Shown here piece by piece: positions 1-37,759 of a stretch of 64,000 bases of DNA. The first letter of the stretch is position 1, and every line of letters starts with the position of its first letter. The notes under the pieces are model-generated. The model searched no databases. It saw only the letters and a program-made list of their open reading frames with translations, and was not told where the DNA came from. The translations under genes and the position numbers were made by a program. Source of the DNA: Medicago truncatula (Eukaryota > Streptophyta > Magnoliopsida > Fabales > Fabaceae); contig NC_053045.1 of NCBI RefSeq assembly GCF_003473485.1, positions 58,570,494-58,634,493 of the forward strand, given 5' to 3'.

Positions 1-26
1 TCATACAAGTAAATTACTCAAATGCT

Positions 27-141
27 CTTCGGCAGTTAACTGCCGAAGTTTTAAAAATACGGCTGCAGTTAACTGTCGAGGAAAACTTCGGCAGTAAACT
101 ACCGAGGAAAACTGAAAAACTTCGGCAGTTAACTGCCGAGG
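27..141. repeat. Cluster of four palindromic repeats (CGGCAGTTAACTGCCG type)
   Basis: A perfect 22-bp palindrome centred on GTTAAC lies at 27-48, followed by three diverged copies near 62, 89 and 120, separated by short A-rich spacers (GAGGAAAAC). Every copy can fold on itself. Such palindromes are usually part of the ends or body of a DNA transposon; the array begins at the window edge, so the parent element cannot be delimited here. Confidence 0.75.
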
Positions 142-10817: not shown

Positions 10818-12365
10818 ATCTATATTATAAGATGACAACTAGGGTACCCATGGAAGAATGGTGTATAATTTACCTCAACCAATACACATTAGCAACATAA
10901 GCACATTTTTAAGTGGTATCCATGAACTATCTTGATCCCACCAACAAATTGCTCATTTTCATTGATTGGTGGATAAATTACCCACCATTCTTCAAAGGTA
11001 ATCTAGAAAAAACCATATTATAAACATTTAACTTGCACAATTGGTATAGTACACGTCTGTCCAAAAAAAAATTTGGTATAATACACATGACATCTTCCTT
11101 TATTGAACATAATTAGTGCTTTTAAATACAACATCGATCCTATACATGTTGCATATTATTCTAAAGATTACATAAAATTGGTAAAGATATGTGATTTGGG
11201 CAGACTTATGCAATTGATACTTAAATTATATTGACAAAATAAATAATTTTTTTGTTACTAATTTATCATGGTATGTAAGATAAAATGAACCAATTGTAGG
11301 TATAGCCTTAACCTGGTATGTAAGGTAATTTGTTCATGTGGTTTGCTTTTTTTTCTTTCTTTTGAGTAATCTTTCATGGTTTACTAAAAGGCTTATAATG
11401 ATAAAATAATTAAATATTCGATTACTATGTTTGCTAAAAAAATCTCTCAAAAAAAAAAATATTTGCTAAAAAAAATATTGTATGTTTGCTCAAAAACAAA
11501 TCATGGTATGTAGTAGAAAATGAGTAAGTTGTAGTATAGCATTAACATGGTATATAAGAAAGGTAATTTTGTTTAAAAAAATAGGTTAAATTGGATATTA
11601 TGTCCCTTTCATTATTTTATTTTGGTCTCATAACTTCTAAATCGTTCATTTTAATCTCTCAAACATTCTCTCATCTATCAATTTGGTCTCAAACACTATT
11701 CCACCGTATTGTGAGAGTATGGTCGTCGTTCTCGCAAGACTAAACCACCACCACCACCACCCCCCCCCCCCCCCCGGTCATTTATATCTCTTTCTTCTCT
11801 AATAAATGTGTACATATATAGTTTGAAAAATATTTCTGAATAAAAAAGGACAACCTACATTATTTCCAAACTTCATTAATGATGAAAGGAGTTAAGGCAA
11901 GTTTTAAGTCAAAACTTCCCCATTACAGTTTACGCGGTTATGAACAAGATGCCAGACATGTTCAACTAGTATGGTGCAACCTCATTCCTAACTGTTGATA
12001 TAACATGTATCACTATGAAAATAAACATTTTATTTGTTAAACAATTTTATTTACCTGTCATTCTTATTTCTTCCATATGCTGCAGACCGAAAAGGAATGG
12101 ATACATTTGGTAGGTATCATCTTATCTATAGCAACGATTAAGATATGAGAAATGTTAACGAGTGTTCTGAAATACTCTTTAAAAATCTTAAATGATAAAT
12201 TTTTATAAAAATATATATATTCAATGCATTAGAAATTGTACCATTTATCAATACATTAGAAATTGTATAGTTTATTAATTTAGATTGTCTAAAAGAGGTT
12301 TGGAGAAATTCATTAGTGAGACCCGGAAAATATTACTCCCTTCATTCTTTTTCTTTTTTTATAAA
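10818..12365. other. Intergenic, low-complexity
   Basis: No gene is seen. It contains repeated phrases ATGGTATGTAAG around 11270-11560, the left-end-like start of a foldback element (AGGTTAAATTGG, with ATTTTGGTCTC phrases, 11584-11700) without a visible partner, and a CCA repeat running into 17 C residues at 11745-11776. Confidence 0.45.
11745..11776. repeat. (CCA)n followed by a 17-base C homopolymer
   Basis: Five CCA units run directly into an uninterrupted C run. In an AT-rich context this is unusual, and the length may be unreliable in assembly. Confidence 0.8.
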
Positions 12366-14958: not shown

Positions 14959-15908
14959 CTTGTTTCTTTATGTGAGAAACTGATGTTTTCAGGCTCTTTA
15001 GATAATTTGAATTTTTTAATTCAATGTATGACAAATTGTATAAGTGCTATGTCCTCCTCATTCTATGAATTATATTGTTGATAATTCCAGCCATCACCCC
15101 TTCACTTGCTTCATAACCAAGAAAAAACATAATGAGCTTATGTACTTTGGAAATGAGAATTGGTGTTCTTCCTATTTGATTTTGGATTTTGAATGTGTGG
15201 ATTGAAAATGTTGGATTTCTAATGGACATCAACATGTGCTTACGAAAATTTGAAGTTTGTTGTTTTTGATGGAATAGATGTGAATATGGGAATTTGAATG
15301 TGTGAATTGAAAGAATTGTTTGTGAACGTGTTTACTGTTCAAATATGTGTTTTGGTGAGGTGAAAAAAAATTGGGGGTAGTGAATGGAGGGAGGAAGATG
15401 GTGTTTTAGATAATGATGGGGAGTGAAAAAATTATGTTTTGAAGAAATTAGATGTGTGTTGAAGAATTTCTAGGTTGAAGAAAATGATACGAGTTCTTCA
15501 ATGGAAGTGGTTGAAAGGTAGAAGATGAATTTGTTGGAAATGATAATTATTTATGTTTTTTTTTTTAAAATTTTTAGTTAACGAATATGCCACGTGTATA
15601 GTGACTGGATAAAGAAAAAAATAAAGAAATTATATAGTTAGTTTGCCAACTCAGCAGATTCTGCTGACATGTTTTAGTGAGGGATCAAAAGTGGAAGAAT
15701 CTGAAATGATAATGACAGAATTTAAACTTTTTTTTTTACGAGGACCAAAATTGGAATTCGCTAATATTACAGGGACCAAAAGAGGTATTAACCCTAATTT
15801 TTTTTTAAGAAGTCAAACTAATCTATTAAAATAGACACATTAAAGAAAATCAAACCTAAAATAGATACATGAATGATTTAAACATGCATGTGTGGATTTG
15901 ACTTGTTG
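14959..15908. other. 3' flank of the GDSL gene and intergenic sequence
   Basis: The first about 100 bp are probably 3' UTR. The remainder is G/A-biased with TTGAATGTGTGAATTGAA-type repeats (15180-15320). At 15770-15800 a phrase GGGACCAAAAGAGGTATTAA looks like one end of a Mutator-type foldback element, with no partner nearby. Confidence 0.4.
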
Positions 15909-16186
15909 GATTAGGTGTCGGTACTTCTACGGTAGGACAGACAGCCTTAAAAGTTGCGTCAAGCAAGATGACCAAACATGAGAAAGTGTCTTCCGACAAT
16001 CAACATGCTTTCATACCATTTGCTTTTGACACTTTTGATTTCCTTACACCAGAGACTGTTGACCTTCTACGTAGAGTTTAAAGGGCCATGCATAACAATG
16101 CCATGTCTCCCAAGTATATGATTGTGTTTACGAGGATTTGTTTTGCCATCCAAAAAGACCTAGCGGCGCAGCTTGCTGTCCGCTTG

Positions 16187-16195
<9 letters not shown>
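15909..16195 (+). pseudogene. LINE ORF2 C-terminal fragment, copy 1
   Basis: The translation reads TALKVASSKMTKHEKVSSDN then QHAFIPFAFDTFDFLTPETV and DLLRRV, a stop, and later FTRICFAIQKDLAAQLAVRL. I recognise this as the end of a reverse-transcriptase protein that is common in legume genomes (the segment after its DLTGVSP motif). It has an internal stop and indels. A (TA)n tract follows directly. A second partial copy lies at 17391 and a third at 36222. Confidence 0.6.

Positions 16196-16253
<58 letters not shown>
16190..16253. repeat. (TA)n microsatellite
   Basis: About 64 bp of alternating TA sit between the LINE fragment and the left terminal inverted repeat of the next element. Confidence 0.95.
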
Positions 16254-17390: not shown

Positions 17391-17546
17391 CCCAAGTATA
17401 TGAATGTTGACCTTCTACGTAGAGTTTAAAGGGTCATGCATAACAATGTCATGTCTCCCAAATATATGAATGTTGTGTTTACGAGGATTTATTTTGCCAT
17501 CCAAAAAGACCTAGCGGCGCAGCTTGTTGTCCGCTTGCCTTCTATT
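17391..17546 (+). pseudogene. LINE ORF2 C-terminal fragment, copy 2
   Basis: This repeats the sequence from GTTGACCTTCTACGTAGAG to CAGCTTG.TGTCCGCTTGCC found at about 16058-16189, with a few substitutions. It lies directly after transposon A and is again followed by a short TA tract and a related transposon, so the block (LINE fragment, TA tract, MITE) appears duplicated in tandem. Confidence 0.7.
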
Positions 17547-33441: not shown

Positions 33442-33601
33442 TTTTGTTCTTGCTCGATCCCATTCACTTATCTTCGACAAAATAGAAAGCCTTTGGAAAC
33501 ATTAAACCTTGTGTTTATTTTCTATTCCTTTTCCTCTTTAGCTGATAAATGAGAACAAATTTTTAAAGAGAGGTTCGACATAAACATGGTTTTAGGTTTT
33601 C

Positions 33602-33955
33602 TCAGAAAGCTTTGAGAATAGCTTGATCAGCGATCAAGTGAGCGAGTTTGAGATAGGGAGAAGCCGATAAAAGCTCATGTAATATTCTTCTCTGAAATCT
33701 GTTGATTCTCCGAGCAAAAGCTTCCGCGAAATACTTAGCAACCTTACTCATCGCTCCAGTTGGCAACGAAGCTGACAACACAATACGATTCACAAGCATG
33801 TATGCGAGCTCAAGATTGTTTAGCTGAAGAGCTTCGCCACACACCATCAAAGTGTGAACAAGTTCAACCCCTGCTTGTGAGTCGAAGAGGAACCACCGAT
33901 CTAATGGGTTCAGTCGACGGAAATAATGTTGAAGTTGAAAGAATGTCACTCCCAT
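33602..33955 (-). pseudogene. DELLA/GRAS protein fragment
   Basis: The minus-strand frame reads DSQAGVELVHTLMVCGEALQ, then NNLELAYMLVNRI, GAMSKVAKYFAEAFARRI and SPYLKLAHLIADQAILKAF. This corresponds to the start of the GRAS domain (leucine heptad I) of DELLA-type gibberellin repressors, in which the pattern is DSQETGVRLVHTLMACAEA ... GAMRKVATYFAEALARRIY ... CPYLKFAHFTANQAILEAF. A stop replaces the expected continuation to the VHIID motif, and the N-terminal DELLA motifs are absent, so it is a truncated gene fragment rather than a repressor. Its upstream side runs into the repeats at 33889-34147. It may have been captured and moved by an element. Confidence 0.75.
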
Positions 33956-34575: not shown

Positions 34576-34738
34576 AAGTGCTAGCAACACTCTCTCTAGA
34601 TCACTCTCTTATTGGTTTAAATGATTGTGTGTCTACACTTTGAAAATAGAAACCATACAAAGTGGTGAGACATACTTTGATTTCATCCAATAAAAGAGTG
34701 AGTGAGAAAAAGAGTGTTGAAAAGTTTTGCTAGCATTC
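34576..34738. mobile_element. Short MITE (about 163 bp)
   Basis: The arms GTGCTAGCAACACTCTCTCT and, in reverse from the right end, ATGCTAGCAAAACTTTTCAACACTC with CTCTTTTATTGG pair with each other. The GGATGCTAGCAA-type terminus recurs in legume MITEs; related single ends occur near 20980 and 21100. Non-coding. Confidence 0.65.
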
Positions 34739-35415
34739 CTGTTGGAAACAATAACTTATTCTACTCATTTTCAGCCAGCTGAAATTATAAATGTTAGAAA
34801 TGTTATAGAAAATGGTTGATAGCATATAGTAGCATATCTCTAATCCCATGTCCGAACCAATTTTCAAATCTCCAAAGTAAGTTTTCCCCCACATCTGGTT
34901 CTCCATTAAAACAATAAGTATATTTAGAGAACCATGACTGAGGAGATTTGTTATCAGAGGCTGATTTAGCAAAGGAATTACAAACATTACAACACCTACA
35001 TCAAAATACGTAACCATAAATACAACAAAATATTTCACATTTAAGACTCAGTGATCAAACACCATACTCTATTACTGAATCAATCAGTAGTATGAATTGT
35101 AACAATCAAATTTAAATTCAACAAAATATTCAGCCTTTGAGAACATTATCTTCATATTACATAATATTATCAAAACTTGGACACTGGCATGTAGGATAAA
35201 TAATATAATAGTAAAGTAGATAAGATCAGCTACCCTAATTCACCTAATTAATGGGTTAAGAACAAAAAGAGTCAGATATAGCTTTCTAGGCTAGCAATGT
35301 GCATCAAATTATATGCTCAGAGCCCAGTGCTTATTCATCATTCATATTCATATAAAATGAGTAAATAACAAATTAAAAAAAAAAAAAAAATAAAAAAAGA
35401 TAAAAATAATTAAAT
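34739..35415. other. Intergenic, no gene recognised
   Basis: A 102-codon frame on the minus strand (35038-34730) has no motif and AT-rich composition; I do not regard it as a gene. An A-rich run lies at 35371-35400. This region may include the 3' end of the snoRNA host transcript. Confidence 0.35.
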
Positions 35416-35494
35416 GGATCCTCAGTGAGTATGCTTATAGCTGACATCAAATTAAAAATTCAGGTCTCAAAGATTTCATGCCATCATAGGATCC
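35416..35494 (-). ncRNA. C/D-box snoRNA with guide to the 5' end of 18S rRNA
   Basis: On the minus strand the segment is closed by a GGATCC...GGATCC terminal stem. C box ATGATGG is at 35487-35481, D' box CTGA at 35463-35460, a C'-like TGATGT at 35449-35444, and D box CTGA at 35425-35422. Length of 79 nt is normal. Directly before D' lies AATCTTTGAGAC, which is exactly complementary to GTCTCAAAGATT near nucleotide 34-45 of plant 18S rRNA as I remember it. By the D+5 rule it would direct 2'-O-methylation of C38. The guide before D (TATAAGCATACTCA) has no target that I recognise. It would act in the nucleolus with fibrillarin. It lies about 320 nt downstream of a promoter on the same strand. Individual boxes are short, but the stem, order and rRNA match together make the call reasonable. 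Confidence 0.78.
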
Positions 35495-35593
35495 AACATT
35501 TTTTACCCAAACAAACACAAACATAAAATTGTTACTACTACAAAATCAAAAATTTGGGAATTGAAAGATTTAACAGTCTGTTTATTCACTGCA

Positions 35594-35815
35594 CCTGTGG
35601 AAAAACGAAGGTGAAGTGACTCAACACGGCTGCAAAAAATCTATGCCACTTAACATAGATGATGAGATTAACCATTAATCAATTGAATATCAATCAATGG
35701 CATCTCAAGAGGCAATATTAAAATTTATAAACTATATAATAAATAAATAAATAAAACTACATATCTAATCTAATTACATACAAGACGAAAGAGAAAGAGG
35801 ATTTTCTGCAGCTAC
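35594..35815 (-). ncRNA. Inferred 5' part of a noncoding snoRNA host transcript
   Basis: Reading from the promoter, a leader of about 34 nt is followed by a strong donor GTATGT (35781-35776), and a good acceptor TTTTTCCACAG ends at 35595. No open reading frame of note is present. Within the predicted intron are short hairpins (TGAGATGCCATT paired with AATGGTTAATCTCA). The snoRNA at 35416-35494 would lie in the following exon or a second intron. The transcript is inferred from signals only. Confidence 0.4.
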
Positions 35816-35840
35816 AATATGAAGGTGGAGGCGTTCTTGT

Positions 35841-35962
35841 GATATTTATAGTTGGGGTTGTTAAATTAGGGTTTTTCACCTGCTGGAAAGACTATAAAAC
35901 CCTCAGTTTGGTTGGTTTATTACGAGTTTACCTTTCCTTTCTAACTCTTAATAAACGGCCCA
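35841..35962 (-). promoter_or_regulatory. Promoter with TATA box, telo box and site II motif
   Basis: On the minus strand: site II-type TGGGCC at 35962-35957, telo box AAACCCTA at 35874-35867, and TATAAATATC at 35850-35841. A second telo-like AAAACCCT on the plus strand lies at about 35897. The telo box plus site II combination is established for plant ribosomal-protein and snoRNA genes. It directs transcription toward the snoRNA. Confidence 0.65.
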
Positions 35963-36221: not shown

Positions 36222-36436
36222 GTGGCAGAAAGCGTCTTCTGACAATCAACATGATTTTATACCATTTGCTTTCGACACTTTCGGTTTCCTAGCACCAGAG
36301 GTTGTTGACCTTCTACATAGAGTTCAAAAGGTCATGTCACATAGGTCCATGAATGTTGTATTCACGATAATTGATTTTGTAACCTAAAAAGGCCTAACAG
36401 CGCAGCTTGTTACTCTTTTATCTTCTATTCATGTGT
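36222..36436 (+). pseudogene. LINE ORF2 C-terminal fragment, copy 3
   Basis: This shares with the 15909 and 17391 fragments the segments GACAATCAACATG..TTTATACC, GTTGACCTTCTAC.TAGAGTT and GCGCAGCTTGTT, and translates to DNQHDFIPFAFDTFGFLAPE then VVDLLHRVQKVM. It is broken by indels further on and has no flanking coding sequence. Confidence 0.6.
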
Positions 36437-37267
36437 AAGTAATCTTGGATACATCTAAATAAATAAGCTTTTAAAAAAAAATCTAAACCTACAATTTTTC
36501 TGAAAAAGTTAGACTAGTCCGAACATTAGGGTAAGGATCATCTCCATTTAGCAAAATAAATTGAGTATGCAATTTGGAGACAGATAGACACGTAAAATAG
36601 ATATTCGATCCCACCATTAAGTGAGTCACATTATCATTAATTATTATTTTCAATTTTGTGTCTTTTTCTCTCCTCCCAATGGTGGAAATTGAGAGGATGA
36701 TAAATGGAGAAGATCTTAACTCCTTAAATAGACTGGGTTATAGATGTTTATCCAATGGTCCGACATACTCCCTTAAATAGATGAGTCAACTCTTTTCTTA
36801 CTAACGGAAAAAATCTTGATTGACATTATTTCTTCACTTTCAATTTGTTCATGGCATCTCGTGATCACTGACTGTATAACTTTTTTTTCCTTTGAATTAA
36901 TGTCGACAAAGTGAAGGACCACTGCGTAGCATAACAATTTACCACAACCAGCATGAGTGTTAATGGACGGTGGAATCAGATCCTAAACAAAGAAACAAAC
37001 AAATCAATGATGTCATGACACACGTAACAAAATCAACATATTCCACGAAAAGTCGAAAAAGTTTACAAAGTCCAACAACACCTTGCTGCCCAAGTCCCGT
37101 GTTCCATGTCTTACTAAGAATCGATTCTATGCATGCGTTCCCAATTGTGTGGGTCCCCAAATTCTCGGAACCCCCTATTTATTCAACACACACGTAAACG
37201 TTAAAACCAAAACCTACACAACACAAACACATTCATATTTTTCTTCATAACACAAAAAAACATCATC
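36437..37267. other. Upstream region of the EF-hand gene
   Basis: AT-rich DNA without genes. A possible TATA-type CTATTTATT lies at about 37175, some 90 bp before the start codon, followed by a CA-rich leader (AACACACACGTAAACG, CACAACACAAACACATTC). Confidence 0.45.
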
Positions 37268-37759
37268 ATGTGTCCATCTGACCGCAACCTCCGCCCACAA
37301 CCTACCGCAACCGATTTTCGACCGGCATTCGACATTCTTGACACCGATTGCGATGGCAAAATAAGCCGTGATGACCTCCGTTCGTTCTACACCACCGTGA
37401 CAGGTGGTGTGAACGGAGGAGACGATGCAATCCGTGCCATGATGTCGGTGGCGGACACCAACAAGGATGGATTCGTGGAGTACGAGGAATTCGAGCGGGT
37501 GGTTAGCGGAAACAACGGAGAAAAGAGACCGTTGGGATGTGGGGCCATGGAAGATGTGTTCAAGGTGATGGATAGAGATGGTGATGGTAAGCTTAGTCAT
37601 GGAGATTTGAAGAATTATATGGCTTGGGCTGGTTTTGCTGCTTCCGATGAAGAGATTAATGCTATGATTAAGCTTGGTGGTGGTGATCAAAACGGTGGCG
37701 TTAGCTTCGATGGTTTGATTCGTTTATTAGCTCTTGATCATTTTGTACCAGCTAATTAA
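37268..37759 (+). CDS. EF-hand calcium-binding protein (CML / CP1-like)
   Basis: An intronless gene of 163 codons. Three canonical EF-hand loops are present: DTDCDGKISRDD (residues 25-36), DTNKDGFVEYEE (63-74) and DRDGDGKLSHGD (102-113). Loops 1 and 3 end in Asp rather than Glu at position 12, which usually lowers calcium affinity or favours magnesium. A fourth loop (GGDQNGGVSFDG, about 138-149) lacks the first Asp and the final Glu and should not bind calcium. The N-terminus MCPSDRNLRP and overall layout resemble, from memory, the Arabidopsis calcium-binding protein CP1. No membrane segment or signal peptide is seen, so it is probably a cytosolic or nuclear calcium sensor or buffer. Single-exon structure and GC-richer coding DNA than its flanks are typical of plant CMLs. 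Confidence 0.92.
   Translation: MCPSDRNLRPQPTATDFRPAFDILDTDCDGKISRDDLRSFYTTVTGGVNGGDDAIRAMMSVADTNKDGFVEYEEFERVVSGNNGEKRPLGCGAMEDVFKVMDRDGDGKLSHGDLKNYMAWAGFAASDEEINAMIKLGGGDQNGGVSFDGLIRLLALDHFVPAN

Follow-up and report, generated by a model that had tools for sequence, protein, structure and literature searches.

We identified a two-snoRNA gene on the minus strand of a 64,000-nucleotide stretch of Medicago truncatula C4 (hereafter, the window), in which snoR66 is followed by snoR118. Very probably, the pair belongs to a gene that Pol II would transcribe from a promoter with site II, telo box and TATA motifs into a noncoding precursor, and a second pair at a 60S ribosomal protein L7 (RPL7) gene on C7 is its duplicate or shares an ancestor with it. 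The pair is genuine, conserved and ordinary for a plant, its target is known, and the gene itself is unremarkable, combining conserved guides for rRNA methylation with promoter motifs common in plants. The change of host between the two loci and a possible accessory pairing of snoR66 are the sole points of mild interest. The features of the locus are listed below from upstream to downstream.

35957–35962, minus strand: site II element TGGGCC (motif search; TGGGCY definition from a passage of PMC4660826)
35867–35874, minus strand: telo box AAACCCTA (motif search; definition from a passage of PMC4660826)
35845–35850, minus strand: TATA box, TATAAA within TATAAATA (motif search)
35079–35589, minus strand: cassette common to the window and the C7 RPL7 locus (two blastn pieces, 35079–35152 and 35245–35589)
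35416–35494, minus strand: snoR66 box C/D snoRNA, 79 nt including the GGATCC stem (Rfam RF00202)
35494–35489 / 35421–35416, minus strand: GGATCC stem of snoR66 (read from the sequence)
35487–35481, minus strand: C box of snoR66, ATGATGG (read from the sequence)
35464–35475, minus strand: 12-nt D' guide of snoR66, AATCTTTGAGAC, directly before D' (read from the sequence)
35463–35460, minus strand: D' box of snoR66, CTGA (read from the sequence)
35450–35444, minus strand: C' box of snoR66, TTGATGT (read from the sequence)
35430–35438, minus strand: AUAAGCAUA, preceding the D box, which may pair with 18S U27–U35 as an accessory element (shuffle test)
35425–35422, minus strand: D box of snoR66, CTGA (read from the sequence)
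35269–35345, minus strand: snoR118, the other box C/D snoRNA of the cluster (Rfam RF01424)

The original prediction placed a C/D-box snoRNA on the minus strand, with defined ends, a D' guide and a complete C/D', C'/D box set closed by a GGATCC stem, and all of this was borne out. Every box is intact, and an Rfam covariance search matched snoR66 (RF00202) to 35418–35491 on the minus strand with 67.5 bits (gathering score, 43; E = 2.5e-12 in the 64 kb searched), which is far beyond chance. Other Rfam families on the same stretch scored below their gathering scores (for example, snoR77Y at 28 bits). The C box consensus is RUGAUGA, from which the last base of the window's C box (G) departs, and the same G is present in the Rfam consensus of the snoR66 family.

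When compared with 76 bases of generic plant 18S rRNA, as opposed to Medicago's own 18S, the D' guide forms 12 contiguous pairs with positions 34–45 (G34–U45), which sets C38 across from the fifth base ahead of D'. In Arabidopsis, 18S C38 is a 2'-O-methylated (Nm) site mapped by RiboMeth-seq and assigned to SnoR66 (PMC8053127, Table 1). Together, the 12-bp pairing and this assignment uphold the C38 target that had been predicted; the target is correct and already published, so it is not new.

A single snoRNA had been proposed at this locus. While snoR66 is real, its neighbor had been overlooked: Rfam snoR118 (RF01424) matched with 80.7 bits against a gathering score of 44, 72 bases downstream of snoR66 on the same strand and beyond the 35416–35962 covered earlier, which makes the locus a two-snoRNA cluster, snoR66 then snoR118. 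Arabidopsis RiboMeth-seq data assign 25S C2198 to SnoR118 (PMC8053127, Table 1), and a cotton DNA-methylation paper also mentions snoR118 (PMC11222342). Over the whole window, the Rfam matches above the gathering score were snoR66, snoR118 and two microRNA families, MIR5269 (34612–34690, plus strand; 66.1 bits versus 60), which lies ~580 bases from snoR118 on the opposite strand, and MIR2629 (22–93, minus strand; 72 bits versus 60). A weak MIR2629 match (18 bits, under the gathering score) was also seen near the C7 copy. On the plus strand of the window, 37268–37759 holds a 163-aa open reading frame (ORF) with EF-hand pairs that is calmodulin-like.

Querying the genome (430 Mb, 42 contigs) with a 185-base DNA sequence returned two places, the window and C7:27785257-27785441 at 89% identity, and the snoR66 covariance model gave two loci in the genome among the best 60 candidates scored. 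The C7 locus carries both snoRNAs in the same order and on the same strand as in the window. About 500 bases below its snoR118, on the same strand, starts the first coding exon of RPL7, followed by four more open exon pieces; the first 62 residues match Pfam Ribosomal_L30_N (E = 1.5e-6; 28.8 bits, slightly under the cut-off of 31.6). We take the host to be L7 from these features, with its exon pieces presumably spliced together. The C7 pair lies upstream of the RPL7 start codon and, on the simplest reading, would sit in a 5'-UTR intron. Upstream of the C7 pair lie one telo box and, in the opposite orientation, two site II motifs; a search of their vicinity gave no TATA motif. The RPL7 first exon also matched C3 (84%) and C2 (65%, 2 stops), with 0 Rfam matches up to E 0.1 in the 6,324 bases around these two places; the C2 match, at C2:14277007-14277147, is a decayed first exon with two TAA stops. 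Judged by titles, and by passages of PMC5122169 and PMC4660826, no literature title among those listed names a Medicago, host-gene or RPL7 link for the snoRNA pair.

Between the window and C7, the mature snoRNAs match at 149 of 151 positions (snoR66, 73 matches and 1 mismatch, in a loop; snoR118, 76 matches and 1 mismatch; 0 gap columns in either), whereas the spacer between them has 28 matches, 17 mismatches and 22 gap columns and the downstream part 89, 23 and 85, respectively. The 94 upstream bases (35496–35589; 87 matches, 6 mismatches and 13 gap columns) are intermediate. Conservation of the two snoRNAs is much stronger than that of the spacer or the downstream part, and the contrast is uneven by side. 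Retention of the mature RNAs next to a diverged spacer and downstream part speaks for selection on both copies, which two sequences cannot prove.

The same comparison bears on an improbable alternative, in which the window would hold a silent relic, an intron fragment that was copied and no longer yields its snoRNAs, and the C7 RPL7 copy supplies all snoR66 and snoR118. A paralogue beside open RPL7 exons does exist, and the well-kept 94 upstream bases somewhat weaken the contrast with the mature RNAs. Against a relic, however, stand the very low divergence of the mature positions relative to the strongly diverged spacer and downstream part, the intact boxes of snoR66, and the telo box, site II and TATA motifs upstream.

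Duplication of the whole neighborhood, as in a whole-genome duplication with retained neighbors, is unsupported, because, beyond the cassette, the 59.6 kb surrounding the C7 copy gave scattered matches to the window, which we treated collectively as repeats; several of these join one C7 stretch to more than one place in the window. For example, window positions 15901–16253, 17405–17546 and 36227–36465 all match C7 joined positions 10841–11212, which is likely a dispersed repeat. Separately, a 39-base match at 82% links window positions 33466–33504 to the C7 piece just below snoR118 and is possibly a third trace of the cassette flank. Homology of the promoter and leader with C7 is not claimed, with a best local alignment score of 26 that involved only a pyrimidine-rich stretch and was reached by 7 of 300 shuffles.

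Turning to the promoter of the window pair, the TATA, telo box and site II elements of the original prediction could all be located (35845–35850, 35867–35874 and 35957–35962), in line upstream of snoR66 on the minus strand, from which transcription would be expected to start at about 35815–35820. With 7 telo boxes and 17 site II elements in the window on both strands, this is the sole telo box/site II pair with starts less than 200 bases apart, although ~0.7 such pairs are expected by chance (7 × 17 × 400 / 64,000). A close pair is not rare by chance, so what matters is that this one lies immediately upstream of the snoRNAs.

We consider a free-standing noncoding host likely, because the window shows no RPL7 exon (five exon pieces from C7 gave no match in it better than E 1.3) and contains the site II, telo box and TATA motifs. 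The dedicated noncoding host proposed earlier is thus favored yet unproven, and the other locus is hosted by RPL7. According to passages of PMC4660826, most Arabidopsis polycistronic snoRNA genes are independent Pol II units with promoters rich in telo box/site II motifs, while the hosts of intronic plant snoRNAs are mostly genes for ribosomal proteins or ribosome biogenesis. Both arrangements seem to occur here, an independent unit in the window and a ribosomal-protein gene at C7.

As improbable as the silent relic is a protein gene extending downstream along the minus strand with the window snoRNAs in one of its introns. Such an arrangement would resemble the sister pair, which precedes the RPL7 start codon and is most simply placed in a 5'-UTR intron, and both snoRNAs would fall between a donor-like site at 35781 and an acceptor-like site at 35244. 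A candidate coding region is also available in a GRAS-domain ORF on the same strand (33602–33955), perhaps a fragment of a DELLA-like gene, but it covers only profile positions 1–106 of 374 and lies 1.3 kb below snoR118, and none of the RPL7 exon pieces was found in the window.

Whether or not the free-standing precursor that we favor is spliced, the spliced leader that had been suggested for it fares less well: splicing is permitted by the sites present, but weakly, with one donor-like site (35781) versus 13 acceptor-like sites passing the filter in 34901–35850. Within the putative leader, 35600–35715 on the minus strand can form two hairpins (fold z-score, −2.62; 1 of 200 shuffles as stable). 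These hairpins lie outside the part common to C7, and no Rfam match up to E 5 was found for this stretch, a candidate third structured RNA.

The second guide region of snoR66, before the D box, had been regarded as a possible orphan. It does lack a listed methylation target, but instead of an orphan guide it may be an accessory element that pairs beside C38. With the same generic plant 18S bases, AUAAGCAUA can form a 9-bp helix, one G–U included, with 18S U27–U35, just before the C38 guide duplex and overlapping it by two bases. A helix of this length was reached by 26 of 5,000 shuffles against 18S positions 1–36 and by 59 of 5,000 against positions 1–76, and its 7-bp non-overlapping part by 372 of 5,000; the idea of accessory pairing was formed after the sequence was seen. 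Duplex energy was not significant, with 203 of 2,000 shuffles as good against positions 1–36 and 251 of 2,000 against positions 1–76. The element is kept both in the Rfam snoR66 consensus and at C7. A role as a true methylation guide was rejected: the helix begins with the fifth base ahead of the D box, which would direct methylation to U27, and among the entries listed, the 18S column of Table 1 in PMC8053127 begins at A28. The main text of that paper does not use 'accessory', 'extra base' or 'additional base'. In yeast, accessory pairing of snoRNAs with rRNA, including overlaps with the guide target, is described in parts of PMC5389607, as is the extra pairing of U18, which was without a role in the construct tested.

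C/D snoRNPs contain fibrillarin, NOP56, NOP58 and the 15.5K protein. In the mechanism that we propose from these sequence comparisons, Pol II would probably transcribe snoR66 and snoR118 on the minus strand from the site II/telo box/TATA promoter, and the noncoding precursor would be trimmed, with or without splicing, to two C/D snoRNAs, each expected to bind these four proteins. The D' guide of snoR66 would then pair with 18S G34–U45 and direct 2'-O-methylation of C38 in M. truncatula, and snoR118 would aim at 25S C2198, a target taken from Arabidopsis (PMC8053127, Table 1). The window cassette would be a duplicate of the C7 RPL7 pair or descend with it from a common ancestor, and the direction of any duplication is likewise conjectural.

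More tentatively, and with considerable doubt, the observations can be joined in one reading, in which the pair was transferred within the genome, from a ribosomal-protein gene to a free-standing noncoding gene or the reverse, both settings having telo box and site II motifs upstream, and AUAAGCAUA acts as a second grip on 18S U27–U35. If true, such a grip next to and overlapping the C38 duplex would explain why the D side has no methylation target, and accessory pairing, if real, would be a testable reason for a conserved snoR66 guide region without a listed target. The RPL7 locus and the apparently free-standing locus form a small natural case of host change in plant snoRNAs, with the mature RNAs nearly fixed.

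Compared with known systems, the window's snoR66 agrees with its family (RF00202) in boxes, D' guide and length, and in the 18S C38 target known from Arabidopsis; differences are minor overall, with three consensus positions absent from the D'–C' loop and a single extra base where the guide region begins. Its snoR118 shares both guides and the boxes with RF01424 but has a D'–C' loop without 16 consensus positions. Like yeast snoRNAs with extra rRNA pairing, such as snR13 (described in parts of PMC5389607), snoR66 has a second short element whose predicted pairing adjoins and overlaps the guide target, although for snoR66 the support consists of one predicted 9-bp helix. Finally, the window locus resembles the plant polycistronic telo box/site II snoRNA genes described in passages of PMC4660826, with two snoRNAs in a row behind a telo box, a site II element and a TATA box, and differs from them in that a sister of its cassette lies within a ribosomal-protein gene.
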